In this document: positions 5,170-64,000 of the stretch, one piece after another
Numbering within the stretch: the stretch's first letter is position 1
How the letters are laid out: each line of letters begins with the position of its first letter
The notes under the pieces: generated by a model
The model's database searches: none
Told to the model about the DNA's origin: nothing
Seen by the model: the letters and a program-made list of their open reading frames with translations, nothing else
NCBI GenBank assembly: GCA_037893245.1
Contig: JBAIAA010000262.1
Location: 62,001 to 126,000, forward strand
Direction of reading: 5' to 3'
DNA length: 64,000 nucleotides
Source: Crossaster papposus
Lineage: Eukaryota > Echinodermata > Asteroidea > Velatida > Solasteridae
Translations under genes and position numbers: made by a program

Positions 5170-5178
5170 CCTTTTGCA

Positions 5179-5598: not shown

Positions 5599-6007
5599 TG
5601 ATCGCCAAGCGGCCGCAAATAATGCAAGATGGCGGAGATGCTGCTTTTCATCGTAAACAACCATGGATTAAAAAAATTGGTAACTTACACAATAAAAAAT
5701 GGCTTAGACATCATGATTGAATCAATATATTGGAAATCTGTTATTCTACAAATAATTAATTTTGGGTTTCGTGATACAAAAACATCTTCAATGAGAAAAA
5801 AGCAATTTAATGAACAGAACAGATGCCTATTTTGAGTATGTACACACAAACAATCCAGCAGGGAGGGACTACTCAGTACACTGATTCGTAGCGTGCAAAG
5901 GGCTAAAAAGGTATTTTTGCTTCACTGCTATTCACATTTAATAAATATTGTAGAATGTTTTTAGAATGTCTGCTTTAATTTTGTTTGCATTTTCAAAATT
6001 TACATGA

Positions 6008-6079
6008 GGCATAGTGGCGCAGTTGAAGCGTGCTGGGCCCATAACCCAGAGGTCCGAGGATCGAAACCTCGCTCTTCTA
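6008..6079 (+). tRNA. Module A: tRNA-iMet(CAT)-like
   Basis: The module aligns gap-free over 72 nt to animal initiator tRNA-Met. D-arm is GCGC/GCGT. Anticodon arm is CTGGG-CCCATAA-CCCAG, with the three consecutive G-C pairs and C33 of initiators. T-arm is CGAGG-ATCGAAA-CCTCG, a perfect stem with the initiator loop carrying A54 and A60. A box TGGCGCAGTTG fits TRGYNNARNNG, and the B box GGATCGAAACC is intact. A T5 run at 6085-6089 could end Pol III transcription. The acceptor stem GGCATAG/CTCTTCT has two mismatches (3-70, 5-68) and G1-U72 instead of A1-U72. It could be transcribed, but use in initiation is doubtful. The same module recurs about 77 times in the window. Confidence 0.6.
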
Positions 6080-6084
6080 ACAAG

Positions 6085-6089
6085 TTTTT
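6085..6089 (+). terminator. T5 Pol III-type terminator after module A
   Basis: Five T start 6 nt after the discriminator base of module A. This is normal tRNA-gene spacing, and it recurs in every unit. Confidence 0.55.
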
Positions 6090-6110
6090 GGTATGACATG
6101 AGGTACTCGA

Positions 6111-6182
6111 CTCGGAGTGACAAAGTAGACACTTTCTTGGTCAGTACCCGAGAGTTTGGTTGACCACAACCTCGGTCTGCTC
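6111..6182 (+). pseudogene. Module E: decayed tRNA-iMet-derived copy (AGT in anticodon place)
   Basis: This 72-nt stretch between A and B aligns without gaps to the initiator tRNA: GGAGTG for AGAGTG near the 5' end, GTACCCGAGAG for ATAACCCAGAG after the anticodon, ACAACC for GAAACC in the T-arm and GTCTGCT at the 3' acceptor strand. The anticodon stem CTTGG/CCGAG still pairs fully with one T-G wobble, around loop TCAGTAC (anticodon position AGT). The D-stem, T-stem (2 of 5 pairs) and acceptor stem are broken, and the A and B boxes are lost. A TTTT run follows at 6193-6196. It is a relic, not a functional gene. Confidence 0.65.
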
Positions 6183-6231
6183 AGGATAATTATTTTCTTG
6201 AAAGTGATTTCATTTTCATTACAAATAGTTA

Positions 6232-6303
6232 CGCAGAGTGGTGCCGTGGGAGCGTGATGGGCCCATAACCCAGAGGCCCGAGGACCGAAACCTCGCTCTG
6301 CTA
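6232..6303 (+). tRNA. Module B: tRNA-iMet(CAT)-like, best acceptor stem in the unit
   Basis: The acceptor stem CGCAGAG/CTCTGCT pairs at six of seven positions; only 1-72 (C-U) fails. The D-stem GTGC/GCGT pairs with wobbles. Anticodon arm is ATGGG-CCCATAA-CCCAG, with an A-G mismatch at 27-43 but the three initiator G-C pairs kept. T-arm is CGAGG-ACCGAAA-CCTCG, with a perfect stem and A54/A60. The A box TGGTGCCGTGG has one deviation (C for the conserved A), and the B box reads GGACCGAAACC. T5 follows at 6312-6316. Together with A it is the most tRNA-like module, but the missing A1-U72 pair argues against normal initiator function. Confidence 0.55.
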
Positions 6304-6311
6304 AAGAGGTA

Positions 6312-6407: not shown

Positions 6408-6479
6408 GGCATGGTGGCGCAGTGGAAGCTTTCTGGGCCTATAACCCAGAGTGCCGAGGATCAAAACCTCGTTCTGCTG
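6408..6479 (+). pseudogene. Module C: tRNA-iMet-derived, anticodon changed to TAT
   Basis: This is the partner of A in the second half of the unit. The anticodon loop is CCTATAA, so the anticodon reads TAT (isoleucine AUA codon) on an otherwise initiator-type CTGGG/CCCAG stem. The D-stem 3' strand is GCTT instead of GCGT. The T-loop is ATCAAAA, so the B box has lost its invariant G. The acceptor stem GGCATGG/TTCTGCT has one mismatch and three G-U pairs, and the discriminator is G. The first copies have GCTTTCTGGG and later ones mostly GCTTGCTGGG. T5 follows at 6488-6492. The broken B box makes efficient Pol III transcription unlikely. Confidence 0.6.
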
Positions 6480-6513: not shown

Positions 6514-6585
6514 CTCAGAGTGACAAAGTAGACCCTTTCTTGGTCAGTAACCGAGAGTTCGGATGATCACAACCTCGGTCTGCTC
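6514..6585 (+). pseudogene. Module F: decayed tRNA-iMet-derived copy, partner of E
   Basis: Same position and decay as E: CTCAGAG at the 5' acceptor, anticodon arm CTTGG-TCAGTAA-CCGAG (stem intact with one wobble), GGATG-ATCACAA-CCTCG where the T-arm should be, and GTCTGCT at the 3' acceptor. Four of seven acceptor pairs remain, and TTTT follows at about 6592-6595. F keeps slightly more tRNA-like bases than E (CAGAG, GGATGATC). Sharing these losses with E dates them before the doubling from about 400 to 801 bp. Confidence 0.65.
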
Positions 6586-6634: not shown

Positions 6635-6706
6635 CGCAGAGTAGTGCAGCGGGAGCGTGATGGGCCCATAGCCCAGAGGTCCGAGGACCAAAACCTCGCT
6701 TTGCTA
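6635..6706 (+). pseudogene. Module D: tRNA-iMet(CAT)-like with degraded B box
   Basis: The acceptor stem CGCAGAG/CTTTGCT pairs at six of seven positions with one wobble. The A box TAGTGCAGCGG fits the consensus exactly. Anticodon arm is ATGGG-CCCATAG-CCCAG, with CAT kept and position 38 changed to G. The T-stem CGAGG/CCTCG is perfect, but the loop ACCAAAA has lost the conserved TCGA core, so TFIIIC binding should be weak. T5 follows at 6715-6719. D corresponds to B in the other half. Confidence 0.6.
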
Positions 6707-15700: not shown

Positions 15701-17961
15701 TGGTATGACATGAGGTACTCGACTCGGAGTGACAAAGTAGACACTTTCTTGGTCAGTACCCGAGAGTTTGGTTGACCACAAACTCGGTCTGCTCAGGATA
15801 ATTATTTTCTTGAAAGTGATTTCATTTTCATTACAAATAGTTACGCAGAGTGGTGCCGTGGGAGCGTGATGGGCCCATAACCCAGAGGCCCGAGGACCGA
15901 AACCTCGCTCTGCTAAAGAGGTATTTTTGCTTCACTGTTATTCAAATTTAATAATTATTTTAGAATGTTTTTAGAATGTCTGCTTTTATTTTGTTTGTTG
16001 TTTTTCTAAATTTACATGAGGCATGGTGGCGCAGTGGAAGCTTTCTGGGCCTATAACCCAGAGTGCCGAGGATCAAAACCTCGTTCTGCTGCTAATAAGT
16101 TTTTGGTATGACTTGAAGTACTCGACTCAGAGTGACAAAGTAGACCCTTTCTTGGTCAGTAACCGAGAGTTCGGATGATCACAACCTCGGTCTGCTCAGG
16201 ATAATTTTGTATTTGATAGGGATTTCATTTTCATTAAAAATAGTTACGCAGAGTAGTGCAGCGGGAGCGTGATGGGCCCATAGCCCAGAGGTCCGAGGAC
16301 CAAAACCTCGCTTTGCTAACTAGGTATTTTTGCTTCACTGCTATTCACATTTAATAAATATTGTAGAATGTTTTTAGAATGTCTGCTTTAATTTTGTTTG
16401 CATTTTCAAAATTTACATGAGGCATAGTGGCGCAGTTGAAGCGTGCTGGGCCCATAACCCAGAGGTCCGAGGATCGAAACCTCGCTCTTCTAACAAGTTT
16501 TTGGTATGACATGAGGTACTCGACTCGGAGTGACAAAGTAGACACTTTCTTGGTCAGTACCCGAGAGTTTGGTTGACCACAACCTCGGTCTGCTCAGGAT
16601 AATTATTTTCTTGAAAGTGATTTCATTTTCATTACAAATAGTTACGCAGAGTGGTGCCGTGGGAGCGTGATGGGCCCATAACCCAGAGGCCCGAGGACCG
16701 AAACCTCGCTCTGCTAAAGAGGTATTTTTGCTTCACTGTTATTCAAATTTAATAATTATTTTAGAATGTTTTTAGAATGTCTGCTTTTATTTTGTTTGTT
16801 GTTTTTCTAAATTTACATGAGGCATGGTGGCGCAGTGGAAGCTTTCTGGGCCTATAACCCAGAGTGCCGAGGATCAAAACCTCGTTCTGCTGCTAATAAG
16901 TTTTTGGTATGACTTGAAGCACTCGACTCAGAGTGACAAAGTAGACCCTTTCTTGGTCAGTAACCGAGAGTTCGGATGATCACAACCTCGGTCTGCTCAG
17001 GATAATTTTGTATTTGATAGGGATTTCATTTTCATTAAAAATAGTTACGCAGAGTAGTGCAGCGGGAGCGTGATGGGCCCATAGCCCAGAGGTCCGAGGA
17101 CCAAAACCTCGCTTTGCTAACTAGGTATTTTTGCTTCACTGCTATTCACATTTAATAAATATTGTAGAATGTTTTTAGAATGTCTGCTTTAATTTTGTTT
17201 GCATTTTCAAAATTTACATGAGGCATAGTGGCGCAGTTGAAGCGTGCTGGGCCCATAACCCAGAGGTCCGAGGATCGAAACCTCGCTCTTCTAACAAGTT
17301 TTTGGTATGACATGAGGTACTCGACTCGGAGTGACAAAGTAGACACTTTCTTGGTCAGTACCCGAGAGTTTGGTTGACCACAACCTCGGTCTGCTCAGGA
17401 TAATTATTTTCTTGAAAGTGATTTCATTTTCATTACAAATAGTTACGCAGAGTGGTGCCGTGGGAGCGTGATGGGCCCATAACCCAGAGGCCCGAGGACC
17501 GAAACCTCGCTCTGCTAAAGAGGTATTTTTGCTTCACTGTTATTCAAATTTAATAATTATTTTAGAATGTTTTTAGAATGTCTGCTTTTATTTTGTTTGT
17601 TGTTTTTCTAAATTTACATGAGGCATGGTGGCGCAGTGGAAGCTTGCTGGGCCTATAACCCAGAGTGCCGAGGATCAAAACCTCGTTCTGCTGCTAATAA
17701 GTTTTTGGTATGACTTGAAGTACTCGACTCAGAGTGACAAAGTAGACCCTTTCTTGGTCAGTAACCGAGAGTTCGGATGATCACAACCTCGGTCTGCTCA
17801 GGATAATTTTGTATTTGATAGGGATTTCATTTTCATTAAAAATAGTTACGCAGAGTAGTGCAGCGGGAGCGTGATGGGCCCATAGCCCAGAGGTCCGAGG
17901 ACCAAAACCTCGCTTTGCTAACTAGGTATTTTTGCTTCACTGCTATTCACATTTAATAAAT

Positions 17962-20900
17962 GTTGTAGAATGTTTTTAGAATGTCTGCTTTAATTTTGTT
18001 TGCATTTTCAAAATTTACATGAGGCATAGTGGCGCAGTTGAAGCGTGCTGGGCCCATAACCCAGAGGTCCGAGGATCGAAACCTCGCTCTTCTAACAAGT
18101 TTTTGGTATGACATGAGGTACTCGACTCGGAGTGACAAAGTAGACACTTTCTTGGTCAGTACCCGAGAGTTTGGTTGACCACAACCTCGGTCTGCTCAGG
18201 ATAATTATTTTCTTGAAAGTGATTTCATTTTCATTACAAATAGTTACGCAGAGTGGTGCCGTGGGAGCGTGATGGGCCCATAACCCAGAGGCCCGAGGAC
18301 CGAAACCTCGCTCTGCTAAAGAGGTATTTTTGCTTCACTGTTATTCAAATTTAATAATTATTTTAGAATGTTTTTAGAATGTCTGCTTTTATTTTGTTTG
18401 TTGTTTTTCTAAATTTACATGAGGCATGGTGGCGCAGTGGAAGCTTGCTGGGCCTATAACCCAGAGTGCCGAGGATCAAAACCTCGTTCTGCTGCTAATA
18501 AGTTTTTGGTATGACTTGAAGTACTCGACTCAGAGTGACAAAGTAGACCCTTTCTTGGTCAGTAACCGAGAGTTCGGATGATCACAACCTCGGTCTGCTC
18601 AGGATAATTTTGTATTTGATAGGGATTTCATTTTCATTAAAAATAGTTACGCAGAGTAGTGCAGCGGGAGCGTGATGGGCCCATAGCCCAGAGGTCCGAG
18701 GACCAAAACCTCGCTTTGCTAACTAGGTATTTTTGCTTCACTGCTATTCACATTTAATAAATATTGTAGAATGTTTTTAGAATGTCTGCTTTAATTTTGT
18801 TTGCATTTTCAAAATTTACATGAGGCATAGTGGCGCAGTTGAAGCGTGCTGGGCCCATAACCCAGAGGTCCGAGGATCGAAACCTCGCTCTTCTAACAAG
18901 TTTTTGGTATGACATGAGGTACTCGACTCGGAGTGACAAAGTAGACACTTTCTTGGTCAGTACCCGAGAGTTTGGTTGACCACAACCTCGGTCTGCTCAG
19001 GATAATTATTTTCTTGAAAGTGATTTCATTTTCATTACAAATAGTTACGCAGAGTGGTGCCGTGGGAGCGTGATGGGCCCATAACCCAGAGGCCCGAGGA
19101 CCGAAACCTCGCTCTGCTAAAGAGGTATTTTTGCTTCACTGTTATTCAAATTTAATAATTATTTTAGAATGTTTTTAGAATGTCTGCTTTTATTTTGTTT
19201 GTTGTTTTTCTAAATTTACATGAGGCATGGTGGCGCAGTGGAAGCTTGCTGGGCCTATAACCCAGAGTGCCGAGGATCAAAACCTCGTTCTGCTGCTAAT
19301 AAGTTTTTGGTATGACTTGAAGTACTCGACTCAGAGTGACAAAGTAGACCCTTTCTTGGTCAGTAACCGAGAGTTCGGATGATCACAACCTCGGTCTGCT
19401 CAGGATAATTTTGTATTTGATAGGGATTTCATTTTCATTAAAAATAGTTACGCAGAGTAGTGCAGCGGGAGCGTGATGGGCCCATAGCCCAGAGGTCCGA
19501 GGACCAAAACCTCGCTTTGCTAACTAGGTATTTTTGCTTCACTGCTATTCACATTTAATAAATATTGTAGAATGTTTTTAGAATGTCTGCTTTAATTTTG
19601 TTTGCATTTTCAAAATTTACATGAGGCATAGTGGCGCAGTTGAAGCGTGCTGGGCCCATAACCCAGAGGTCCGAGGATCGAAACCTCGCTCTTCTAACAA
19701 GTTTTTGGTATGACATGAGGTACTCGACTCGGAGTGACAAAGTAGACACTTTCTTGGTCAGTACCCGAGAGTTTGGTTGACCACAACCTCGGTCTGCTCA
19801 GGATAATTATTTTCTTGAAAGTGATTTCATTTTCATTACAAATAGTTACGCAGAGTGGTGCCGTGGGAGCGTGATGGGCCCATAACCCAGAGGCCCGAGG
19901 ACCGAAACCTCGCTCTGCTAAAGAGGTATTTTTGCTTCACTGTTATTCAAATTTAATAATTATTTTAGAATGTTTTTAGAATGTCTGCTTTTATTTTGTT
20001 TGTTGTTTTTCTAAATTTACATGAGGCATGGTGGCGCAGTGGAAGCTTTCTGGGCCTATAACCCAGAGTGCCGAGGATCAAAACCTCGTTCTGCTGCTAA
20101 TAAGTTTTTGGTATGACTTGAAGTACTCGACTCAGAGTGACAAAGTAGACCCTTTCTTGGTCAGTAACCGAGAGTTCGGATGATCACAACCTCGGTCTGC
20201 TCAGGATAATTTTGTATTTGATAGGGATTTCATTTTCATTAAAAATAGTTACGCAGAGTAGTGCAGCGGGAGCGTGATGGGCCCATAGCCCAGAGGTCCG
20301 AGGACCAATACCTCGCTTTGCTAACTAGGTATTTTTGCTTCACTGCTATTCACATTTAATAAATATTGTAGAATGTTTTTAGAATGTCTGCTTTAATTTT
20401 GTTTGCATTTTCAAAATTTACATGAGGCATAGTGGCACAGTTGAAGCGTGCTGGGCCCATAACCCAGAGGTCCGAGGATCGAAACCTCGCTCTTCTAACA
20501 AGTTTTTGGTATGACATGAGGTACTCGACTCGGAGTGACAAAGTAGACACTTTCTTGGTCAGTACCCGAGAGTTTGGTTGACCACAACCTCGGTCTGCTC
20601 AGGATAATTATTTTCTTGAAAGTGATTTCATTTTCATTACAAATAGTTACGCAGAGTGGTGCCGTGGGAGCGTGATGGGCCCATAACCCAGAGGCCCGAG
20701 GACCGAAACCTCGCTCTGCTAAAGAGGTATTTTTGCTTCACTGTTATTCAAATTTAATAATTATTTTAGAATGTTTTTAGAATGTCTGCTTTTATTTTGT
20801 TTGTTGTTTTTCTAAATTTACATGAGGCATGGTGGCGCAGTGGAAGCTTGCTGGGCCTATAACCCAGAGTGCCGAGGATCAAAACCTCGTTCTGCTGCTA

Positions 20901-23900
20901 ATAAGTTTTTGGTATGACTTGAAGTACTCGACTCAGAGTGACAAAGTAGACCCTTTCTTGGTCAGTAACCGAGAGTTCGGATGATCACAACCTCGGTCTG
21001 CTCAGGATAATTTTGTATTTGATAGGGATTTCATTTTCATTAAAAATAGTTACGCAGAGTAGTGCAGCGGGAGCGTGATGGGCCCATAGCCCAGAGGTCC
21101 GAGGACCAAAACCTCGCTTTGCTAACTAGGTATTTTTGCTTCACTGCTATTCACATTTAATAAATATTGTAGAATGTTTTTAGAATGTCTGCTTTAATTT
21201 TGTTTGCATTTTCAAAATTTACATGAGGCATAGTGGCGCAGTTGAAGCGTGCTGGGCCCATAACCCAGAGGTCCGAGGATCGAAACCTCGCTCTTCTAAC
21301 AAGTTTTTGGTATGACATGAGGTACTCGACTCGGAGTGACAAAGTAGACACTTTCTTGGTCAGTACCCGAGAGTTTGGTTGACCACAACCTCGGTCTGCT
21401 CAGGATAATTATTTTCTTGAAAGTGATTTCATTTTCATTACAAATAGTTACGCAGAGTGGTGCCGTGGGAGCGTGATGGGCCCATAACCCAGAGGCCCGA
21501 GGACCGAAACCTCGCTCTGCTAAGGAGGTATTTTTGCTTCACTGTTATTCAAATTTAATAATTATTTTAGAATGTTTTTAGAATGTCTGCTTTTATTTTG
21601 TTTGTTGTTTTTCTAAATTTACATGAGGCATGGTGGCGCAGTGGAAGCTTGCTGGGCCTATAACCCAGAGTGCCGAGGATCAAAACCTCGTTCTGCTGCT
21701 AATAAGTTTTTGGTATGACTTGAAGTACTCGACTCAGAGTGACAAAGTAGACCCTTTCTTGGTCAGTAACCGAGAGTTCGGATGATCACAACCTCGGTCT
21801 GCTCAGGATAATTTTGTATTTGATAGGGATTTCATTTTCATTAAAAATAGTTACGCAGAGTAGTGCAGCGGGAGCGTGATGGGCCCATAGCCCAGAGGTC
21901 CGAGGACCAAAACCTCGCTTTGCTAACTAGGTATTTTTGCTTCACTGCTATTCACATTTAATAAATATTGTAGAATGTTTTTAGAATGTCTGCTTTAATT
22001 TTGTTTGCATTTTCAAAATTTACATGAGGCATAGTGGCGCAGTTGAAGCGTGCTGGGCCCATAACCCAGAGGTCCGAGGATCGAAACCTCGCTCTTCTAA
22101 CAAGTTTTTGGTATGACATGAGGTACTCGACTCGGAGTGACAAAGTAGACACTTTCTTGGTCAGTACCCGAGAGTTTGGTTGACCACAACCTCGGTCTGC
22201 TCAGGATAATTATTTTCTTGAAAGTGATTTCATTTTCATTACAAATAGTTACGCAGAGTGGTGCCGTGGGAGCGTGATGGGCCCATAACCCAGAGGCCCG
22301 AGGACCGAAACCTCGCTCTGCTAAAGAGGTATTTTTGCTTCACTGTTATTCAAATTTAATAATTATTTTAGAATGTTTTTAGAATGTCTGCTTTTATTTT
22401 GTTTGTTGTTTTTCTAAATTTACATGAGGCATGGTGGCGCAGTGGAAGCTTTCTCGGCCTATAACCCAGAGTGCCGAGGATCAAAACCTCGTTCTGCTGC
22501 TAATAAGTTTTTGGTATGACTTGAAGCACTCGACTCAGAGTGACAAAGTAGACCCTTTCTTGGTCAGTAACCGAGAGTTCGGATGATCACAACCTCGGTC
22601 TGCTCAGGATAATTTTGTATTTGATAGGGATTTCATTTTCATTAAAAATAGTTACGCAGAGTAGTGCAGCGGGAGCGTGATGGGCCCATAGCCCAGAGGT
22701 CCGAGGACCAAAACCTCGCTTTGCTAACTAGGTATTTTTGCTTCACTGCTATTCACATTTAATAAATATTGTAGAATGTTTTTAGAATGTCTGCTTTAAT
22801 TTTGTTTGCATTTTCAAAATTTACATGAGGCATAGTGGCGCAGTTGAAGCGTGCTGGGCCCATAACCCAGAGGTCCGAGGATCGAAACCTCGCTCTTCTA
22901 ACAAGTTTTTGGTATGACATGAGGTACTCGACTCGGAGTGACAAAGTAGACACTTTCTTTGTCAGTACCCGAGAGTTTGGTTGACCACAACCTCGGTCTG
23001 CTCAGGATAATTATTTTCTTGAAAGTGATTTCATTTTCATTACAAATAGTTACGCAGAGTGGTGCCGTGGGAGCGTGATGGGCCCATAACCCAGAGGCCC
23101 GAGGACCGAAACCTCGCTCTGCTAAAGAGGTATTTTTGCTTCACTGTTATTCAAATTTAATAATTATTTTAGAATGTTTTTAGAATGTCTGCTTTTATTT
23201 TGTTTGTTGTTTTTCTAAATTTACATGAGGCATGGTGGCGCAGTGGAAGCTTGCTGGGCCTATAACCCAGAGTGCCGAGGATCAAAACCTCGTTCTGCTG
23301 CTAATAAGTTTTTGGTATGACTTGAAGTACTCGACTCAGAGTGACAAAGTAGACCCTTTCTTGGTCAGTAACCGAGAGTTCGGATGATCACAACCTCGGT
23401 CTGCTCAGGATAATTTTGTATTTGATAGGGATTTCATTTTCATTAAAAATAGTTACGCAGAGTAGTGCAGCGGGAGCGTGATGGGCCCATAGCCCAGAGG
23501 TCCGAGGACCAAAACCTCGCTTTGCTAACTAGGTATTTTTGCTTCACTGCTATTCACATTTAATAAATGTTGTAGAATGTTTTTAGAATGTCTGCTTTAA
23601 TTTTGTTTGCATTTTCAAAATTTACATGAGGCATAGTGGCGCAGTTGAAGCGTGCTGGGCCCATAACCCAGAGGTCCGAGGATCGAAACCTCGCTCTTCT
23701 AACAAGTTTTTGGTATGACATGAGGTACTCGACTCGGAGTGACAAAGTAGACACTTTCTTGGTCAGTACCCGAGAGTTTGGTTGACCACAACCTCGGTCT
23801 GCTCAGGATAATTATTTTCTTGAAAGTGATTTCATTTTCATTACAAATAGTTACGCAGAGTGGTGCCGTGGGAGCGTGATGGGCCCATAACCCAGAGGCC

Positions 23901-26900
23901 CGAGGACCGAAACCTCGCTCTGCTAAAGAGGTATTTTTGCTTCACTGTTATTCAAATTTAATAATTATTTTAGAATGTTTTTAGAATGTCTGCTTTTATT
24001 TTGTTTGTTGTTTTTCTAAATTTACATGAGGCATGGTGGCGCAGTGGAAGCTTGCTGGGCCTATAACCCAGAGTGCCGAGGATCAAAACCTCGTTCTGCT
24101 GCTAATAAGTTTTTGGTATGACTTGAAGTACTCGACTCAGAGTGACAAAGTAGACCCTTTCTTGGTCAGTAACCGAGAGTTCGGATGATCACAACCTCGG
24201 TCTGCTCAGGATAATTTTGTATTTGATAGGGATTTCATTTTCATTAAAAATAGTTACGCAGAGTAGTGCAGCGGGAGCGTGATGGGCCCATAGCCCAGAG
24301 GTCCGAGGACCAAAACCTCGCTTTGCTAACTAGGTATTTTTGCTTCACTGCTATTCACATTTAATAAATATTGTAGAATGTTTTTAGAATGTCTGCTTTA
24401 ATTTTGTTTGCATTTTCAAAATTTACATGAGGCATAGTGGCGCAGTTGAAGCGTGCTGGGCCCATAACCCAGAGGTCCGAGGATCGAAACCTCGCTCTTC
24501 TAACAAGTTTTTGGTATGACATGAGGTACTCGACTCGGAGTGACAAAGTAGACACTTTCTTGGTCAGTACCCGAGAGTTTGGTTGACCACAACCTCGGTC
24601 TGCTCAGGATAATTATTTTCTTGAAAGTGATTTCATTTTCATTACAAATAGTTACGCAGAGTGGTGCCGTGGGAGCGTGATGGGCCCATAACCCAGAGGC
24701 CCGAGGACCGAAACCTCGCTCTGCTAAAGAGGTATTTTTGCTTCACTGTTATTCAAATTTAATAATTATTTTAGAATGTTTTTAGAATGTCTGCTTTTAT
24801 TTTGTTTGTTGTTTTTCTAAATTTACATGAGGCATGGTGGCGCAGTGGAAGCTTGCTGGGCCTATAACCCAGAGTGCCGAGGATCAAAACCTCGTTCTGC
24901 TGCTAATAAGTTTTTGGTATGACTTGAAGTACTCGACTCAGAGTGACAAAGTAGACCCTTTCTTGGTCAGTAACCGAGAGTTCGGATGATCACAACCTCG
25001 GTCTGCTCAGGATAATTTTGTATTTGATAGGGATTTCATTTTCATTAAAAATAGTTACGCAGAGTAGTGCAGCGGGAGCGTGATGGGCCCATAGCCCAGA
25101 GGTCCGAGGACCAAAACCTCGCTTTGCTAACTAGGTATTTTTGCTTCACTGCTATTCACATTTAATAAATATTGTAGAATGTTTTTAGAATGTCTGCTTT
25201 AATTTTGTTTGCATTTTCAAAATTTACATGAGGCATAGTGGCGCAGTTGAAGCGTGCTGGGCCCATAACCCAGAGGTCCGAGGATCGAAACCTCGCTCTT
25301 CTAACAAGTTTTTGGTATGACATGAGGTACTCGACTCGGAGTGACAAAGTAGACACTTTCTTGGTCAGTACCCGAGAGTTTGGTTGACCACAACCTCGGT
25401 CTGCTCAGGATAATTATTTTCTTGAAAGTGATTTCATTTTCATTACAAATAGTTACGCAGAGTGGTGCCGTGGGAGCGTGATGGGCCCATAACCCAGAGG
25501 CCCGAGGACCGAAACCTCGCTCTGCTAAAGAGGTATTTTTGCTTCACTGTTATTCAAATTTAATAATTATTTTAGAATGTTTTTAGAATGTCTGCTTTTA
25601 TTTTGTTTGTTGTTTTTCTAAATTTACATGAGGCATGGTGGCGCAGTGGAAGCTTTCTGGGCCTATAACCCAGAGTGCCGAGGATCAAAACCTCGTTCTG
25701 CTGCTAATAAGTTTTTGGTATGACTTGAAGTACTCGACTCAGAGTGACAAAGTAGACCCTTTCTTGGTCAGTAACCGAGAGTTCGGATGATCACAACCTC
25801 GGTCTGCTCAGGATAATTTTGTATTTGATAGGGATTTCATTTTCATTAAAAATAGTTACGCAGAGTAGTGCAGCGGGAGCGTGATGGGCCCATAGCCCAG
25901 AGGTCCGAGGACCAATACCTCGCTTTGCTAACTAGGTATTTTTGCTTCACTGCTATTCACATTTAATAAATATTGTAGAATGTTTTTAGAATGTCTGCTT
26001 TAATTTTGTTTGCATTTTCAAAATTTACATGAGGCATAGTGGCACAGTTGAAGCGTGCTGGGCCCATAACCCAGAGGTCCGAGGATCGAAACCTCGCTCT
26101 TCTAACAAGTTTTTGGTATGACATGAGGTACTCGACTCGGAGTGACAAAGTAGACACTTTCTTGGTCAGTACCCGAGAGTTTGGTTGACCACAACCTCGG
26201 TCTGCTCAGGATAATTATTTTCTTGAAAGTGATTTCATTTTCATTACAAATAGTTACGCAGAGTGGTGCCGTGGGAGCGTGATGGGCCCATAACCCAGAG
26301 GCCCGAGGACCGAAACCTCGCTCTGCTAAAGAGGTATTTTTGCTTCACTGTTATTCAAATTTAATAATTATTTTAGAATGTTTTTAGAATGTCTGCTTTT
26401 ATTTTGTTTGTTGTTTTTCTAAATTTACATGAGGCATGGTGGCGCAGTGGAAGCTTGCTGGGCCTATAACCCAGAGTGCCGAGGATCAAAACCTCGTTCT
26501 GCTGCTAATAAGTTTTTGGTATGACTTGAAGTACTCGACTCAGAGTGACAAAGTAGACCCTTTCTTGGTCAGTAACCGAGAGTTCGGATGATCACAACCT
26601 CGGTCTGCTCAGGATAATTTTGTATTTGATAGGGATTTCATTTTCATTAAAAATAGTTACGCAGAGTAGTGCAGCGGGAGCGTGATGGGCCCATAGCCCA
26701 GAGGTCCGAGGACCAAAACCTCGCTTTGCTAACTAGGTATTTTTGCTTCACTGCTATTCACATTTAATAAATATTGTAGAATGTTTTTAGAATGTCTGCT
26801 TTAATTTTGTTTGCATTTTCAAAATTTACATGAGGCATAGTGGCGCAGTTGAAGCGTGCTGGGCCCATAACCCAGAGGTCCGAGGATCGAAACCTCGCTC

Positions 26901-28567
26901 TTCTAACAAGTTTTTGGTATGACATGAGGTACTCGACTCGGAGTGACAAAGTAGACACTTTCTTGGTCAGTACCCGAGAGTTTGGTTGACCACAACCTCG
27001 GTCTGCTCAGGATAATTATTTTCTTGAAAGTGATTTCATTTTCATTACAAATAGTTACGCAGAGTGGTGCCGTGGGAGCGTGATGGGCCCATAACCCAGA
27101 GGCCCGAGGACCGAAACCTCGCTCTGCTAAGGAGGTATTTTTGCTTCACTGTTATTCAAATTTAATAATTATTTTAGAATGTTTTTAGAATGTCTGCTTT
27201 TATTTTGTTTGTTGTTTTTCTAAATTTACATGAGGCATGGTGGCGCAGTGGAAGCTTGCTGGGCCTATAACCCAGAGTGCCGAGGATCAAAACCTCGTTC
27301 TGCTGCTAATAAGTTTTTGGTATGACTTGAAGTACTCGACTCAGAGTGACAAAGTAGACCCTTTCTTGGTCAGTAACCGAGAGTTCGGATGATCACAACC
27401 TCGGTCTGCTCAGGATAATTTTGTATTTGATAGGGATTTCATTTTCATTAAAAATAGTTACGCAGAGTAGTGCAGCGGGAGCGTGATGGGCCCATAGCCC
27501 AGAGGTCCGAGGACCAAAACCTCGCTTTGCTAACTAGATATTTTTGCTTCACTGCTATTCACATTTAATAAATATTGTAGAATGTTTTTAGAATGTCTGC
27601 TTTAATTTTGTTTGCATTTTCAAAATTTACATGAGGCATAGTGGCGCAGTTGAAGCGTGCTGGGCCCATAACCCAGAGGTCCGAGGATCGAAACCTCGCT
27701 CTTCTAACAAGTTTTTGGTATGACATGAGGTACTCGACTCGGAGTGACAAAGTAGACACTTTCTTGGTCAGTACCCGAGAGTTTGGTTGACCACAACCTC
27801 GGTCTGCTCAGGATAATTATTTTCTTGAAAGTGATTTCATTTTCATTACAAATAGTTACGCAGAGTGGTGCCGTGGGAGCGTGATGGGCCCATAACCCAG
27901 AGGCCCGAGGACCGAAACCTCGCTCTGCTAAAGAGGTATTTTTGCTTCACTGTTATTCAAATTTAATAATTATTTTAGAATGTTTTTAGAATGTCTGCTT
28001 TTATTTTGTTTGTTGTTTTTCTAAATTTACATGAGGCATGGTGGCGCAGTGGAAGCTTTCTCGGCCTATAACCCAGAGTGCCGAGGATCAAAACCTCGTT
28101 CTGCTGCTAATAAGTTTTTGGTATGACTTGAAGTACTCGACTCAGAGTGACAAAGTAGACCCTTTCTTGGTCAGTAACCGAGAGTTCGGATGATCACAAC
28201 CTCGGTCTGCTCAGGATAATTTTGTATTTGATAGGGATTTCATTTTCATTAAAAATAGTTACGCAGAGTAGTGCAGCGGGAGCGTGATGGGCCCATAGCC
28301 CAGAGGTCCGAGGACCAAAACCTCGCTTTGCTAACTAGGTATTTTTGCTTCACTGCTATTCACATTTAATAAATATTGTAGAATGTTTTTAGAATGTCTG
28401 CTTTAATTTTGTTTGCATTTTCAAAATTTACATGAGGCATAGTGGCGCAGTTGAAGCGTGCTGGGCCCATAACCCAGAGGTCCGAGGATCGAAACCTCGC
28501 TCTTCTAACAAGTTTTTGGTATGACATGAGGTACTCGACTCGGAGTGACAAAGTAGACACTTTCTTT
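17962..28567 (+). repeat. Higher-order duplication: seven-unit blocks of 5607 bp
   Basis: Five otherwise rare variants recur exactly 5607 bp (7 x 801) apart: ATGTTGTAG at 17962 and 23569; GGCACAG at 20437 and 26044; TAAGGAGG at 21524 and 27131; TCTCGGCC at 22455 and 28062; TTCTTTGTC at 22960 and 28567. A sixth, ACCAATACC at 20304 and 25911, shares the spacing and reappears six units later at 30717. A seven-unit block was therefore copied in tandem after the 801-bp unit had spread. Confidence 0.85.
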
Positions 28568-37868: not shown

Positions 37869-37940
37869 CGCAGAGTGGTGCCGTGGGAGCGTGATGGGCC
37901 CATAACCCAGAGGTCCGAGGACCAAAACCTCGCTTTGCTA
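37869..37940 (+). pseudogene. B/D hybrid module from unequal exchange
   Basis: The 5' part is B (GTGGTGCCGTGG, CCCATAACCC) and the 3' part is D (AGGTCC, ACCAAAACC, CTTTGCT). The switch lies between 37905 and 37914. The next module A follows 398 bp after the previous one, so C and F are absent here. Confidence 0.85.
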
Positions 37941-38384
37941 ACTAGGTATTTTTGCTTCACTGCTATTCACATTTAATAAATATTGTAGAATGTTTTTAGA
38001 ATGTCTGCTTTAATTTTGTTTGCATTTTCAAAATTTACATGAGGCATAGTGGCGCAGTTGAAGCGTGCTGGGCCCATAACCCAGAGGTCCGAGGATCGAA
38101 ACCTCGCTCTTCTAACAAGTTTTTGGTATGACATGAGGTACTCGACTCGGAGTGACAAAGTAGACACTTTCTTGGTCAGTACCCGAGAGTTTGGTTGACC
38201 ACAACCTCGGTCTGCTCAGGATAATTATTTTCTTGAAAGTGATTTCATTTTCATTACAAATAGTTACGCAGAGTGGTGCCGTGGGAGCGTGATGGGCCCA
38301 TAACCCAGAGGCCCGAGGACCGAAACCTCGCTCTGCTAAAGAGGTATTTTTGCTTCACTGTTATTCAAATTTAATAATTATTTT

Positions 38385-38406
38385 AGAATGTTTTTAGAAT
38401 GTTTTT
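38385..38406 (+). repeat. 11-bp slippage expansion in the B-C spacer
   Basis: AGAATGTTTTT is present twice (38385-38395, 38396-38406) before AGAATGTCTGC, where other units have it once. This accounts for the single 812-bp unit step. Confidence 0.9.
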
Positions 38407-41400
38407 AGAATGTCTGCTTTTATTTTGTTTGTTGTTTTTCTAAATTTACATGAGGCATGGTGGCGCAGTGGAAGCTTGCTGGGCCTATAACCCAGAGTGC
38501 CGAGGATCAAAACCTCGTTCTGCTGCTAATAAGTTTTTGGTATGACTTGAAGTACTCGACTCAGAGTGACAAAGTAGACCCTTTCTTGGTCAGTAACCGA
38601 GAGTTCGGATGATCACAACCTCGGTCTGCTCAGGATAATTTTGTATTTGATAGGGATTTCATTTTCCTTAAAAATAGTTACGCAGAGTAGTGCAGCGGGA
38701 GCGTGATGGGCCCATAGCCCAGAGGTCCGAGGACCAAAACCTCGCTTTGCTAACTAGGTATTTTTGCTTCACTGCTATTCACATTTAATAAATATTGTAG
38801 AATGTTTTTAGAATGTCTGCTTTAATTTTGTTTGCATTTTCAAAATTTACATGAGGCATAGTGGCGCAGTTGAAGCGTGCTGGGCCCATAACCCAGAGGT
38901 CCGAGGATCGAAACCTCGCTCTTCTAACAAGTTTTTGGTATGACATGAGGTACTCGACTCGGAGTGACAAAGTAGACACTTTCTTGGTCAGTACCCGAGA
39001 GTTTGGTTGACCACAACCTCGGTCTGCTCAGGATAATTTTGTATTTGATAGGGATTTCATTTTCATTAAAAATAGTTACGCAGAGTAGTGCAGCGGGAGC
39101 GTGATGGGCCCATAGCCCAGAGGTCCGAGGACCAAAACCTCGCTTTGCTAACTAGGTATTTTTGCTTCACTGCTATTCACATTTAATAAATATTGTAGAA
39201 TGTTTTTAGAATGTCTGCTTTAATTTTGTTTGCATTTTCAAAATTTACATGAGGCATAGTGGCGCAGTTGAAGCGTGCTGGGCCCATAACCCAGAGGTCC
39301 GAGGATCGAAACCTCGCTCTTCTAACAAGTTTTTGGTATGACATGAGGTACTCGACTCGGAGTGACAAAGTAGACACTTTCTTGGTCAGTACCCGAGAGT
39401 TTGGTTGACCACAACCTCGGTCTGCTCAGGATAATTATTTTCTTGAAAGTGATTTCATTTTCATTACAAATAGTTACGCAGAGTGGTGCCGTGGGAGCGT
39501 GATGGGCCCATAACCCAGAGGCCCGAGGACCGAAACCTCGCTCTGCTAAAGAGGTATTTTTGCTTCACTGTTATTCAAATTTAATAATTATTTTAGAATG
39601 TTTTTAGAATGTCTGCTTTTATTTTGTTTGTTGTTTTTCTAAATTTACATGAGGCATGGTGGCGCAGTGGAAGCTTGCTGGGCCTATAACCCAGAGTGCC
39701 GAGGATCAAAACCTCGTTCTGCTGCTAATAAGTTTTTGGTATGACTTGAAGTACTCGACTCAGAGTGACAAAGTAGACCCTTTCTTGGTCAGTAACCGAG
39801 AGTTCGGATGATCACAACCTCGGTCTGCTCAGGATAATTTTGTATTTGATAGGGATTTCATTTTCATTAAAAATAGTTACGCAGAGTAGTGCAGCGGGAG
39901 CGTGATGGGCCCATAGCCCAGAGGTCCGAGGACCAAAACCTCGCTTTGCTAACTAGGTATTTTTGCTTCACTGCTATTCACATTTAATAAATATTGTAGA
40001 ATGTTTTTAGAATGTCTGCTTTAATTTTGTTTGCATTTTCAAAATTTACATGAGGCATAGTGGCGCAGTTGAAGCGTGCTGGGCCCATAACCCAGAGGTC
40101 CGAGGATCGAAACCTCGCTCTTCTAACAAGTTTTTGGTATGACATGAGGTACTCGACTCGGAGTGACAAAGTAGACACTTTCTTGGTCAGTACCCGAGAG
40201 TTTGGTTGACCACAACCTCGGTCTGCTCAGGATAATTATTTTCTTGAAAGTGATTTCATTTTCATTACAAATAGTTACGCAGAGTGGTGCCGTGGGAGCG
40301 TGATGGGCCCATAACCCAGAGGCCCGAGGACCGAAACCTCGCTCTGCTAAAGAGGTATTTTTGCTTCACTGTTATTCAAATTTAATAATTATTTTAGAAT
40401 GTTTTTAGAATGTCTGCTTTTATTTTGTTTGTTGTTTTTCTAAATTTACATGAGGCATGGTGGCGCAGTGGAAGCTTGCTGGGCCTATAACCCAGAGTGC
40501 CGAGGATCAAAACCTCGTTCTGCTGCTAATAAGTTTTTGGTATGACTTGAAGTACTCGACTCAGAGTGACAAAGTAGACCCTTTCTTGGTCAGTAACCGA
40601 GAGTTCGGATGATCACAACCTCGGTCTGCTCAGGATAATTTTGTATTTGATAGGGATTTCATTTTCATTAAAAATAGTTACGCAGAGTAGTGCAGCGGGA
40701 GCGTGATGGGCCCATAGCCCAGAGGTCCGAGGACCAAAACCTCGCTTTGCTAACTAGGTATTTTTGCTTCACTGCTATTCACATTTAATAAATATTGTAG
40801 AATGTTTTTAGAATGTCTGCTTTAATTTTGTTTGCATTTTCTAAATTTACATGAGGCATAGTGGCGCAGTTGAAGCGTGCTGGGCCCATAACCCAGAGGT
40901 CCGAGGATCGAAACCTCGCTCTGCTAACAAGTTTTTGGTATGACATGAGGTACTCGACTCGGAGTGACAAAGTAGACACTTTCTTGGTCAGTACCCGAGA
41001 GTTTGGTTGACCACAACCTCGGTCTGCTCAGGATAATTATTTTCTTGAAAGTGATTTCATTTTCATTACAAATAGTTACGCAGAGTGGTGCCGTGGGAGC
41101 GTGATGGGCCCACAACCCAGAGGCCCGAGGACCGAAACCTCGCTCTGCTAAAGAGGTATTTTTGCTTCACTGTTATTCAAATTTAATAATTATTTTAGAA
41201 TGTTTTTAGAATGTCTGCTTTTATTTTGTTTGTTGTTTTTCTAAATTTACATGAGGCATGGTGGCGCAGTGGAAGCTTGCTGGGCCTATAACCCAGAGTG
41301 CCGAGGATCAAAACCTCGTTCTGCTGCTAATAAGGTTTTGGTATGACTTGAAGTACTCGACTCAGAGTGACAAAGTAGACCCTTTCTTGGTCAGTAACCG

Positions 41401-49900: not shown

Positions 49901-50171
49901 GCCGTGGGAGCGTGATGGGCCCATAACCCAGAGGCCCGAGGACCGAAACCTCGCTCTGCTAAAGAGGTATTTTTGCTTCACTGTTATTCAAATTTAATAA
50001 TTATTTTAGAATGTTTTTAGAATGTCTGCTTTTATTTTGTTTGTTGTTTTTCTAAATTTACATGAGGCATGGTGGCGCAGTGGAAGCTTGCTGGGCCTAT
50101 AACCCAGAGTGCCGAGGATCAAAACCTCGTTCTGCTGCTAATAAGTTTTTGGTATGACTTGAAGTACTCGA

Positions 50172-50243
50172 CTCAGAGTGACAAAGTAGACCCTTTCTTG
50201 GTCAGTACCCGAGAGTTTGGTTGACCACAACCTCGGTCTGCTC
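50172..50243 (+). pseudogene. F/E hybrid module (403-bp C-F/E-B repeat)
   Basis: The 5' part is F (CTCAGAG, GACCCTTTC) and the 3' part is E (GTACCCGAGAGTTTGG, TTGACCAC). It is followed by an E-type spacer and a B module. C therefore recurs after 403 bp (50066, 50469), the reciprocal product of the exchange that makes 398-bp half-units. Confidence 0.8.
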
Positions 50244-50695
50244 AGGATAATTATTTTCTTGAAAGTGATTTCATTTTCATTACAAATAGTTACGCAGAGT
50301 GGTGCCGTGGGAGCGTGATGGGCCCATAACCCAGAGGCCCGAGGACCGAAACCTCGCTCTGCTAAAGAGGTATTTTTGCTTCACTGTTATTCAAATTTAA
50401 TAATTATTTTAGAATGTTTTTAGAATGTCTGCTTTTATTTTGTTTGTTGTTTTTCTAAATTTACATGAGGCATGGTGGCGCAGTGGAAGCTTGCTGGGCC
50501 TATAACCCAGAGTGCCGAGGATCAAAACCTCGTTCTGCTGCTAATAAGTTTTTGGTATGACTTGAAGTACTCGACTCAGAGTGACAAAGTAGACCCTTTC
50601 TTGGTCAGTAACCGAGAGTTCGGATGATCACAACCTCGGTCTGCTCAGGATAATTTTGTATTTGATAGGGATTTCATTTTCATTAAAAATAGTTA

Positions 50696-50758
50696 CGCAG
50701 AGTAGTGCAGCGGGAGTGTGACTGACCAAGAAAGTGTCTACTTTGTCACTCCGAGTCG
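50696..50758. other. Inversion junction: broken D module joined to broken inverted E
   Basis: Module D starts at 50696 in plus orientation and stops after about 26 nt (GGGAG-T-GTGA, with C to T at 50717). From 50721 the sequence is the reverse complement of module E, beginning at the anticodon (ACTGACCAAG). Only one base (A at 50721) is shared between the two sides. No spacer or foreign DNA lies between them, and all further units are inverted. Confidence 0.9.
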
Positions 50759-58600: not shown

Positions 58601-58731
58601 GGCCCATCACGCTCCCACGGCACCACTCTGCGTAACTATTTGTAATGAAAATGAAATCACTTTCAAGAAAATAATTATCCTGAGCAGACCGAGGTTGTGG
58701 TCAACCAAACTCTCGGGTACTGACCAAGAAA

Positions 58732-61700
58732 GTGTCTACTTTGTCACTCCGAGTCGAGTACCTCATGTCATACCAAAAACTTGTTAGCAGAGCGAGGTTT
58801 CGATCCTCGGACCTCTGGGTTATGGGCCCAGCACGCTTCAACTGCGCCACTATGCCTCATGTAAATTTAGAAAATGCAAACAAAATTAAAGCAGACATTC
58901 TAAAAACATTCTACAATATTTATTAAATGTGAATAGCAGTGAAGCAAAAATACCTAGTTAGCAAAGCGAGGTTTTGGTCCTCGGACCTCTGGGCTATGGG
59001 CCCATCACGCTCCCGCTGCACTACTCTGCGTAACTATTTTTAATGAAAATGAAATCCCTATCAAATACAAAATTATCCTGAGCAGACCGAGGTTGTGATC
59101 ATCCGAACTCTCGGTTACTGACCAAGAAAGTGTCTACTTTGTCACTCCGAGTCGAGTACCTCATGTCATACCAAAAACTTGTTAGCAGAGCGAGGTTTCG
59201 ATCCTCGGACCTCTGGGTTATGGGCCCAGCACGCTTCAACTGCGCCACTATGCCTCATGTAAATTTAGAAAATGCAAACAAAATTAAAGCAGACATTCTA
59301 AAAACATTCTACAATATTTATTAAATGTGAATAGCAGTGAAGCAAAAATACCTAGTTAGCAAAGCGAGGTTTTGGTCCTCGGACCTCTGGGCTATGGGCC
59401 CATCACGCTCCCGCTGCACTACTCTGCGTAACTATTTTTAATGAAAATGAAATCCCTATCAAATACAAAATTATCCTGAGCAGACCGAGGTTGTGATCAT
59501 CCGAACTCTCGGTTACTGACCAAGAAAGGGTCTACTTTGTCACTCCGAGTCGAGTACCTCATGTCATACCAAAAACTTGTTAGCAGAGCGAGGTTTCGAT
59601 CCTCGGACCTCTGGGTTATGGGCCTAGCACGCTTCAACTGCGCCACTATGCCTCATGTAAATTTAGAAAATGCAAACAAAATTAAAGCAGACATTCTAAA
59701 AACATTCTACAATATTTATTAAATGTGAATAGCAGTGAAGCAAAAATACCTAGTTAGCAAAGCGAGGTTTTGGTCCTCGGACCTCTGGGCTATGGGCCCA
59801 TCACGCTCCCGCTGCACTACTCTGCGTAACTATTTTTAATGAAAATGAAATCCCTATCAAATACAAAATTATCCTGAGCAGACCGAGGTTGTGATCATCC
59901 GAACTCTCGGTTACTGACCAAGAAATGGTCTACTTTGTCACTCTGAGTCGAGTACTTCAAGTCATACCAAAAACTTATTAGCAGCAGAACGAGGTTTTGA
60001 TCCTCGGCACTCTGGGTTATAGGCCCAGCAAGCTTCCACTGCGCCACCATGCCTCATGTAAATTTAGAAAAACAACAAACAAAATAAAAGCAGACATTCT
60101 AAAAACATTCTAAAATAATTATTAAATTTGAATAACAGTGAAGCAAAAATACCTCTTTAGCAGAGCGAGGTTTCGGTTTCGGGCCTCTGGGTTATGGGCC
60201 CATCACGCTCCCACGGCACCACTCTGGGTAACTATTTGTAATGAAAATGAAATCACTTTCAAGAAAATAATTATCCTGAGCAGACCGAGGTTGTGGTCAA
60301 CCAAACTCTCGGGTACTGACCAAGAAAGTGTCTACTTTGTCACTCCGAGTCGAGTACCTCATGTCATACCAAAAACTTGTTAGCAGAGCGAGGTTTCGAT
60401 CCTCGGACCTCTGGGTTATGGGCCCAGCACGCTTCAACTGCGCCACTATGCCTCATGTAAATTTAGAAAATGCAAACAAAATTAAAGCAGACATTCTAAA
60501 AACATTCTACAATATTTATTAAATGTGAATAGCAGTGAAGCAAAAATACCTAGTTAGCAAAGCGAGGTTTTGGTCCTCGGACCTCTGGGCTATGGGCCCA
60601 TCACGCTCCCACGGCACCACTCTGCGTAATTATTTTTAATGAAAATGAAATCACTTTCAAGAAAATAATTATCCTGAGCAGACCGAGGTTGTGGTCAACC
60701 AAACTCTCGGGTACTGACCAAGAAAGTGTCTACTTTGTCACTCCGAGTCGAGTACCTCATGTCATACCAAAAACTTGTTAGCAGAGCGAGGTTTCGATCC
60801 TCGGACCTCTGGGTTATGGGCCCAGCACGCTTCAACTGCGCCACTATGCCTCATGTAAATTTAGAAAATGCAAACAAAATTAAAGCAGACATTCTAAAAA
60901 CATTCTACAATATTTATTAAATGTGAATAGCAGTGAAGCAAACATACCTAGTTAGCAAAGCGAGGTTTTGGTCCTCGGACCTCTGGGCTATGGGCCCATC
61001 ACGCTCCCGCTGCACTACTCTGCGTAACTATTTTTAATGAAAATGAAATCCCTATCAAATACAAAATTATCCTGAGCAGACCGAGGTTGTGATCATCCGA
61101 ACTCTCGGTTACTGACCAAGAAAGGGTCTACTTTGTCACTCTGAGTCGAGTACTTCAAGTCATACCAAAAACTTATTAGCAGCAGAACGAGGTTTTGATC
61201 CTCGGCACTCTGGGTTATAGGCCCAGCAAGCTTCCACTGCGCCACCATGCCTCATGTAAATTTAGAAAAACAACAAACAAAATAAAAGCAGACATTCTAA
61301 AAACATTCTAAAATAATTATTAAATTTGAATAACAGTGAAGCAAAAATACCTCTTTAGCAGAGCGAGGTTTCGGTCCTCGGGCCTCTGGGTTATGGGCCC
61401 ATCACGCTCCCACGGCACCACTCTGCGTAACTATTTGTAATGAAAATGAAATCACTTTCAAGAAAATAATTATCCTGAGCAGACCGAGGTTGTGGTCAAC
61501 CAAACTCTCGGGTACTGACCAAGAAAGTGTCTACTTTGTCACTCCGAGTCGAGTACCTCATGTCATACCAAAAACTTGTTAGCAGAGCGAGGTTTCGATC
61601 CTCGGACCTCTGGGTTATGGGCCCAGCACGCTTCAACTGCGCCACTATGCCTCATGTAAATTTAGAAAATGCAAACAAAATTAAAGCAGACATTCTAAAA

Positions 61701-64000
61701 ACATTCTACAATATTTATTAAATGTGAATAGCAGTGAAGCAAAAATACCTAGTTAGCAAAGCGAGGTTTTGGTCCTCGGACCTCTGGGCTATGGGCCCAT
61801 CACGCTCCCACGGCACCACTCTGCGTAATTATTTTTAATGAAAATGAAATCACTTTCAAGAAAATAATTATCCTGAGCAGACCGAGGTTGTGGTCAACCA
61901 AACTCTCGGGTACTGACCAAGAAAGTGTCTACTTTGTCACTCCGAGTCGAGTACCTCATGTCATACCAAAAACTTGTTAGCAGAGCGAGGTTTCGATCCT
62001 CGGACCTCTGGGTTATGGGCCTAGCACGCTTCAACTGCGCCACTATGCCTCATGTAAATTTAGAAAATGCAAACAAAATTAAAGCAGACATTCTAAAAAC
62101 ATTCTACAATATTTATTAAATGTGAATAGCAGTGAAGCAAAAATACCTAGTTAGCAAAGCGAGGTTTTGGTCCTCGGACCTCTGGGCTATGGGCCCATCA
62201 CGCTCCCACGGCACCACTCTGCGTAATTATTTGTAATGAAAATGAAATCACTTTCAAGAAAATAATTATCCTGAGCAGACCGAGGTTGTGGTCAACCAAA
62301 CTCTCGGGTACTGACCAAGAAAGTGTCTACTTTGTCACTCCGAGTCGAGTACCTCATGTCATACCAAAAACTTGTTAGCAGAGCGAGGTTTCGATCCTCG
62401 GACCTCTGGGTTATGGGCCCAGCACGCTTCAACTGCGCCACTATGCCTCATGTAAATTTAGAAAATGCAAACAAAATTAAAGCAGACATTCTAAAAACAT
62501 TCTACAATATTTATTAAATGTGAATAGCAGTGAAGCAAACATACCTAGTTAGCAAAGCGAGGTTTTGGTCCTCGGACCTCTGGGCTATGGGCCCATCACG
62601 CTCCCGCTGCACTACTCTGCGTAACTATTTTTAATGAAAATGAAATCCCTATCAAATACAAAATTATCCTGAGCAGACCGAGGTTGTGATCATCCGAACT
62701 CTCGGTTACTGACCAAGAAAGGGTCTACTTTGTCACTCCGAGTCGAGTACCTCATGTCATACCAAAAACTTGTTAGCAGAGCGAGGTTTCGATCCTCGGA
62801 CCTCTGGGTTATGGGCCTAGCACGCTTCAACTGCGCCACTATGCCTCATGTAAATTTAGAAAATGCAAACAAAATTAAAGCAGACATTCTAAAAACATTC
62901 TACAATATTTATTAAATGTGAATAGCAGTGAAGCAAAAATACCTAGTTAGCAAAGCGAGGTTTTGGTCCTCGGACCTCTGGGCTATGGGCCCATCACGCT
63001 CCCGCTGCACTACTCTGCGTAACTATTTTTAATGAAAATGAAATCCCTATCAAATACAAAATTATCCTGAGCAGACCGAGGTTGTGATCATCCGAACTCT
63101 CGGTTACTGACCAAGAAAGGGTCTACTTTGTCACTCTGAGTCGAGTACTTCAAGTCATATCAAAAACTTATTAGCAGCAGAACGAGGTTTTGATCCTCGG
63201 CACTCTGGGTTATAGGCCCAGCAAGCTTCCCCTGCGCCACCATGCCTCATGTAAATTTAGAAAAACAACAAACAAAATAAAAGCAGACATTCTAAAAACA
63301 TTCTAAAATAATTATTAAATTTGAATAACAGTGAAGCAAAAATACCTCTTTAGCAGAGCGAGGTTTCGGTCCTCGGGCCTCTGGGTTATGGGCCCATCAC
63401 GCTCCCACGGCACCACTCTGCGTAACTATTTGTAATGAAAATGAAATCACTTTCAAGAAAATAATTATCCTGAGCAGACCGAGGTTGTGGTCAACCAAAC
63501 TCTCGGGTACTGACCAAGAAAGTGTCTACTTTGTCACTCCGAGTCGAGTACCTAATGTCATACCAAAAACTTGTTAGCAGAGCGAGGTTTCGATCCTCGG
63601 ACCTCTGGCTTATGGGCCCAGCACGCTTCAACTGCGCCACTATGCCTCATGTAAATTTTGAAAATGCAAACAAAATTAAAGCAGACATTCTAAAAACATT
63701 CTACAATATTTATTAAATGTGAATAGCAGTGAAGCAAAAATACCTAGTTAGCAAAGCGAGGTTTTGGTCCTCGGACCTCTGGGCTATGGGCCCATCACGC
63801 TCCCGCTGCACTACTCTGCGTAACTATTTTTAATGAAAATGAAATCCCTATCAAATACAAAATTATCCTGAGCAGACCGAGGTTGTGATCATCCGAACTC
63901 TCGGTTACTGACCAAGAAAGTGTCTACTTTGTCACTCCGAGTCGAGTACCTCATGTCATACCAAAAACTTGTTAGCAGAGCGAGGTTTCGATCCTCGGAC
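58732..64000 (-). repeat. Half-unit-rich end of the array
   Basis: Seven of the ten module-A steps here are 398 bp. Four carry F/E hybrids (between A copies 58785-59183, 59183-59581, 62376-62774 and 63575 to the edge). Three carry D/B hybrids, where GGGCTATGGGCCCATC is followed by ACGGCACC and then the B-side spacer (near 60600, 61800 and 62200). Most of this region thus lacks modules C and one of E/F and B/D. Confidence 0.85.

Follow-up and report, generated by a model that had tools for sequence, protein, structure and literature searches.

Tandem repeats with a tRNA-related part of RNA polymerase III (Pol III) type have been described in Xenopus (OAX/satellite I), the newt Cynops (PolIII/TAN), Rana (Rana/polIII) and, doubtfully, Hydromantes (Hy/polIII). 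The passages of PMC10702118 that treat these repeats call their link to short interspersed elements (SINEs) inconclusive, and Xenopus satellite 1 and Hy/Pol III are catalogued in the corresponding part of PMC9659126. Here we describe a satellite array in a 64,000-nt stretch of the sea star Crossaster papposus (contig JBAIAA010000262.1, positions 62,001 to 126,000 of the forward strand; hereafter the window), whose 801-bp unit contains six 72-nt modules, termed A to F, related to the gene for the initiator methionine tRNA (tRNA-iMet). On balance, we consider it probable from the sequence that such a gene, probably accompanied by 3′ flanking sequence that included a Pol III terminator, seeded the array, which would now be inert and spread by unequal exchange. 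A first-pass annotation had taken this for an unknown kind of satellite; because repeats of this sort, related in part to tRNA and of Pol III type, are already described (PMC10702118, PMC9659126), the kind is known, and it is the initiator source, the three differently decayed modules and the dimeric unit that appear to be new within it.

OAX/satellite I resembles the Crossaster array in being tandemly repeated and in part derived from tRNA (PMC10702118, PMC9659126), but the passages on it mention one central segment of this type, against six modules here, and name no source tRNA, and in PMC10702118 the length of its unit is held to rule it out as a proper satellite. PolIII/TAN, a tandem repeat of ~360 nt with a tRNA-like sequence, lies near the length of the ~400-bp trimer found here and was transcribed in vitro (PMC10702118); the title of its original paper names retroposition of tRNA-Glu, and the passages concerned mention no dimeric unit, unlike the array described here. 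Rana/polIII and Hy/polIII are alike in being tandem repeats with a proposed relation to tRNA, which amounts to 64% similarity over 64 nt in Rana and is called questionable, without a box B, in Hydromantes (PMC10702118). The squamate SINE-derived satellites (sSats) show that parts of tRNA-headed SINEs became satellite-like tandems, but their parent SINEs are known, whereas none is known here, and their amplification stays under that of typical satellites (PMC10702118). Tandem or dense tRNA genes are also found in the arrays of Entamoeba, the human 1q23.3 repeat and the large clusters of Nematostella and teleosts (PMC2652664, PMC4041453, PMC2888827). According to the passages on them, the tRNA genes in one Entamoeba unit number 5 at most (PMC2652664), and the human 7.3-kb unit holds genes for four amino acids with tRNA below 6% of its length (PMC4041453), whereas relics of one tRNA make up 54% of the unit here. 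An initiator-tRNA satellite was not found by title or abstract start in the literature searched; most subscription papers lie outside that search. The passages of PMC5874043 on scallop repeats contain nothing relevant.

Six initiator-tRNA-like modules in an 801-bp unit

The reference for comparison was a sequence of the human initiator-tRNA gene, parts of which stand in the text of 8 papers, including one on human methionyl-tRNA synthetase. When this reference was placed without gaps at all 1602 offsets of one unit (both strands), the six best placements fell exactly at offsets 0, 103, 224, 400, 506 and 627, as the first-pass annotation had claimed (identities in Table 1), and the next best reached 31/72. 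None of 10,000 dinucleotide shuffles attained the observed identity for any of the six modules, including C, D, E and F, for which a shuffle check had been set at the outset. The proposed ancestry from tRNA-iMet is thus supported for all six by ungapped identity; A to D also match RF00005, the Rfam tRNA model. The covariance-model check suggested earlier was passed by A to D and failed by the E stretch, which gave no match at an E-value of 10 or below; positions of E or F are likewise absent from the 16 Rfam tRNA matches in the first 9 kb. Gapped alignment also counts against these two modules, as the local score of E (13) falls short of the maximum of 2,000 shuffles (22) and that of F (25) equals it (25). 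Given these failures, the relationship of E and F rests on the full-length ungapped match together with position, and we read both as relics recognisable by these two features only.

Comparison of module A with 15 tRNA-Met stretches from viral contigs gave at most 47/72; the control is weak, since no gaps were allowed although the D loop is longer in many of those tRNAs. Module A also matches seven Campylobacter phage records over 67 bases, two of them annotated as tRNA-Met. No exact match was found for an E/F stretch in IMG/VR or for a module stretch in GTDB contigs, where an animal satellite would scarcely be expected.

The unit is divided into a 400-bp and a 401-bp half with three modules each, in the order A-E-B in one and C-F-D in the other. 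Although it had been described as built entirely from modules, these account for 432 of its 801 bp, and 46% is AT-rich spacer (46% T, 30% A) with lengths of 31, 49, 104, 34, 49 and 102 nt in unit order. A scan with the six module sequences (at least 36/72) located 435 module positions in the window, in agreement with the roughly 430 claimed. The array, 58 kb of near-identical units arranged head to tail as in a satellite, has a single switch of orientation, at ~50720/50721, which the first-pass annotation had missed; it runs past the end of the window and on the left borders other, non-array sequence at 5902, not at 5907 as first stated. That every unit carries six modules holds as a rule, but 10 of the 143 half-units are chimeric between the two half types and three others deviate by insertions or deletions (395, 395 and 411 bp, against the normal 400/401).

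Table 1. Features of the array, with positions in the window and, for modules, ungapped identity to tRNA-iMet and RF00005 score in the first unit
Feature	Position	Strand	Identity	Bits	Remarks
Satellite array	5902..64000	+ from 5902 to ~50720, - from ~50721			801-bp unit, a dimer of ~400-bp trimers
Module A	6008..6079	+	61/72	44.2	apparent iMet relic; anticodon CAT; A and B box recognisable
First AT-rich spacer	6080..6110	+			31 nt
Module E	6111..6182	+	42/72		apparent relic, heavily decayed; no tRNA model match
Module B	6232..6303	+	58/72	32.1	apparent iMet relic
Module C	6408..6479	+	54/72	33.5	apparent iMet relic; anticodon now TAT; ARAGORN Ile call
Module F	6514..6585	+	45/72		apparent relic, decayed; 66/72 to E
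Module D	6635..6706	+	57/72	32.1	apparent iMet relic; 65/72 to B
Two successive 7-unit (5607-bp) blocks	17622..28835	+			six rare-variant pairs exactly 7 units apart
Three chimeric 398-bp half-units	34844-35241, 37645-38042, 38855-39252 (region 34844..39252)	+			single switch each
Chimeric 403-bp half-unit	50066..50468	+			switch in opposite direction
Inversion junction	50696..50756	.			first 25 nt of + D module meet reversed E module, no spacer
Six chimeric 398-bp half-units	58857..62845	-			minus-arm stretch

Proposed seeding, doubling and exchange

We propose that a tRNA-iMet gene would have been copied as the seed, probably along with the adjoining 3′ sequence and its Pol III terminator, and that local duplication of it would have produced a trimer whose middle copy is the most decayed or the oldest. 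The ~400-bp trimer would then have doubled and its halves diverged to 88% identity, after which the 801-bp dimer would have been amplified and homogenised by unequal exchange and conversion.

The order of these steps is suggested by the half-units. The two halves align over their full length, spacers included, and E-F and B-D are clear sister pairs (Table 1). Against a simple doubling stands module A, which is as close to B (62/72) as to C (61/72), so that the dimer step rests on halves and spacers taken as a whole. Pairwise identity is 99.5-99.6% within a half type and 88% between types (130 of the 143 half-units, the 13 most deviant being excluded), and the trimer therefore most likely preceded the dimer, and the dimer the array. 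The nested ancestry put forward in the first pass (tRNA, trimer, dimer, array) accordingly survives as regards the two halves and the two sister pairs, while A is no clearer a partner of C than of B.

A run of four or five T begins 5-10 nt past each of the six modules of the first unit, and TTTT lies within 20 nt downstream of 427 of the 431 modules that score at least 66/72. As proof of terminators T-runs alone were rejected, with TTTT present in 67% of 20-nt spacer windows. Their position after the modules gives a moderate test, with a chance of ~0.014 for three independent lineages (spacer rate of 0.24, cubed) that leaves them suggestive only; on the strength of this position, a Pol III terminator was probably part of the copied founder.

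Within the array the half types alternate 1-2-1-2 with few exceptions: two neighbours are of the same type in 4 of the 110 adjacent pairs of the plus arm and in 6 of the 31 of the minus arm. Eight of the ten chimeras show a single switch between types, the other two have one extra site in addition to the switch, and three further half-units of the 143 carry one foreign site only. Chimeras are commoner in the minus arm (6/32 vs 4/111, Fisher p = 0.009), and their switch points lie inside E or B or straddle the end of E; we claim no crossover hotspot, because modules occupy 54% of the unit anyway and a single event seems to have been copied into several of the chimeras. Rare-variant pairs exactly 7 units apart number seven, six of which fall within the two successive blocks at 17622-28835. 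The variant shared by the seventh pair is present also at 7209 and 8811. We regard the chimeras and the 7-unit pairs as marks of unequal exchange. Differences from the consensus, deviant half-units excluded, number 0.5-1.2 per half-unit in bins up to 53901, with 0.54 in the bin that spans the junction, and 2.5-2.6 beyond. An analysis of CpG decay was dropped for want of sites.

Two local irregularities were also seen. An 11-bp motif is repeated three times at 38381-38413 (+), within the region of the three plus-arm chimeras. The D modules at 54158-54229 and 57363-57434 (-) score only 47/72 and lie in the 395-bp half-units (6 bp short), possibly representing one deletion copied within the array.

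Direct seeding by the gene is in our judgement the likeliest origin, and next to it comes a SINE-derived satellite, in which the seed, a composite retroposon headed by at least one tRNA-iMet sequence, turned tandem; we hold this to be unlikely. SINE-derived satellites are described for reptiles in the relevant part of PMC10702118. The AT-rich spacers of 102-104 nt could serve as the SINE body, and a lone tRNA-iMet 3′ end, which shares 93% identity with B and D across 28 nt, stands 0.7 kb outside the array at 5142..5170 (+). This piece could be dispersed and SINE-like or an old edge of the array, and no poly-A or simple-repeat tail was noticed in the unit. Three tRNA heads in a single retroposon would, moreover, be unusual. 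Between the lone piece and the array, at 5179-5245, are two identical 24-nt copies of TGCTATAGGCGCATATTTGCGCCC, whose starts are 43 nt apart and whose cores are palindromic.

Promoter remnants and a possible structural role

The unit shares a tRNA-derived region with satellites of the OAX and PolIII/TAN kind. Module A has an A box (TGGCGCAGTTGAA) and a B box (GGATCGAAACCT), from which the remaining modules depart more. Its B-box letters GGATCGAAACC are those of the reference tRNA-iMet, and module A, with a T-run downstream, may still bind TFIIIC or yield short Pol III transcripts. It would be a long shot to suppose that the hundreds of half-decayed relics act as a dense platform of TFIIIC boxes for chromatin, at a boundary or centromere, or as a source of short initiator-tRNA-like RNAs.

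A structural satellite, in which dense B boxes recruit TFIIIC or Pol III to form a heterochromatin boundary, a clustering site or a centromere, would accord with the B box of module A, with the barrier activity of tRNA genes in yeasts and mammals and with the binding of CTCF to the human tRNA tandem repeat, both treated in part of PMC4041453. We nevertheless think it improbable, and the centromeric, heterochromatic or boundary role put forward as possible in the first pass finds no support in this sequence. In every module other than A (B, C, D, E and F) the B box is changed, the only CENP-B-box-like site in the window lies outside the array, and modules are no less variable than spacers (34/432 vs 26/369 variable sites, Fisher p = 0.69; 13 of the 143 half-units, below 98.5% to either type, excluded). 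Where units are this uniform the last comparison has low power, which also weighs against our own view of the array as inert.

The probable inversion and the state of the modules

It is very doubtful that the array or its inversion was produced by assembly, through collapsed or fold-back long reads. Long arrays of units 99.5% identical do assemble poorly, the junction has no spacer, and the 3 kb of minus arm beside it match the plus arm at 99.8% in a register that lies 0.9 kb away from the junction, tied with two distant registers. An exact fold-back would, however, end both arms in the same module, yet D meets E, and the closest in-phase register of the plus arm reaches only 95.2%. The arms differ farther out, as two variants are common to three minus half-units and absent from the plus arm, and the chimeras lie elsewhere and at the unequal frequencies given above; some rare variants do occur in both arms, but at non-mirrored places. 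The array is also anchored in other sequence at 5902. We take the inversion as probably real.

The condition of the stems argues that the modules have probably lost their function as tRNA genes. In the commonest copy of each module, with G-T counted as a pair, the acceptor stem retains 5 of its 7 pairs in A and 6 in each of B, C and D, while E and F have 4 left there and 1 of 4 in the D stem. The anticodon is altered in C (TAT), E and F, and an intact cloverleaf with its anticodon, expected in most copies of a functional tRNA array, is not found. Among the best 150 of the 207 Rfam matches in the window, the majority score 44.2 bits or less and the highest 49.8, whereas 25 of 26 control tRNA matches, from 9 of the 15 viral contigs, exceed 50 bits (range 47.1-69.4). 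ARAGORN (bacterial code) makes 31 tRNA calls in the window; its tRNA-Ile(tat) calls were rejected as real genes, being module C with its changed anticodon. RNA folding was discarded as a test of function, as the human tRNA-iMet reference itself forms no minimum-energy cloverleaf, and neither does any module (seven sequences).

Several observations weigh against unchecked decay. Modules A to D retain 5/5 T-stem pairs and 4-5/5 anticodon-stem pairs, and among the best 150 of 207 matches 12 A modules reach 49.7-49.8 bits, above the one control tRNA at 47.1 bits. At position 69 of module A, G replaces T in 12 of 66 type-1 half-units and restores an acceptor pair. The stems of A to D and the scores of A are better than free decay might leave, but inheritance from the founder is possible, and because B, C and D also have G at position 69, conversion accounts for the G in module A as well as selection does. 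On this sequence evidence, the modules are most likely pseudogenes that give no working initiator tRNA, and the array is probably now without a selected product. That it should be a working amplification of initiator-tRNA genes, similar to the arrays of Entamoeba, is hardly credible: 207 matches pass the Rfam cut-off (the best 150 listed), T-runs follow nearly all modules and the 12 best A modules score as noted, but all six types have acceptor mismatches in their commonest copy, the anticodons of C, E and F are changed, most of the best 150 scores are low, and the Entamoeba arrays, in the part of PMC2652664 on them, are without clear evidence of pseudogenes, unlike the relics here.

The sequence to the left of the array contains mobile-element-like features. 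An open reading frame of 290 aa at 1915-2787 (-) encodes a PIF/Harbinger (HARBI1-type) transposase (DDE_Tnp_4, E = 3.6e-39); among the best 120 of its 557 matches, the closest is an ENA protein (80% over 61% of the query), and named transposases, at 38-56%, are mostly from fish, the others including tick, insect and sea-star proteins. By itself this transposase would indicate a source that is probably animal. Two inverted repeats resemble miniature inverted-repeat transposable elements. The first, at 3694-3840, has 38-nt arms that are 97% complementary with 71 nt between them. The second, at 1053-1422, has 26-nt arms that are 96% complementary with 318 nt between them, starts with TTATAACACC and lies 0.5 kb from the transposase.

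The source of this satellite is legible from its sequence, and the array would illustrate how satellite DNA can arise from an essential gene for a small RNA, a process of which the outline is known from amphibians. The decay stages of the three copies, the doubled unit, the chimeras, the duplicated block and the inversion would together be a record of the steps by which a satellite is born, and the array could be used to ask whether the chromatin of a satellite is shaped by the Pol III promoters that it inherited.

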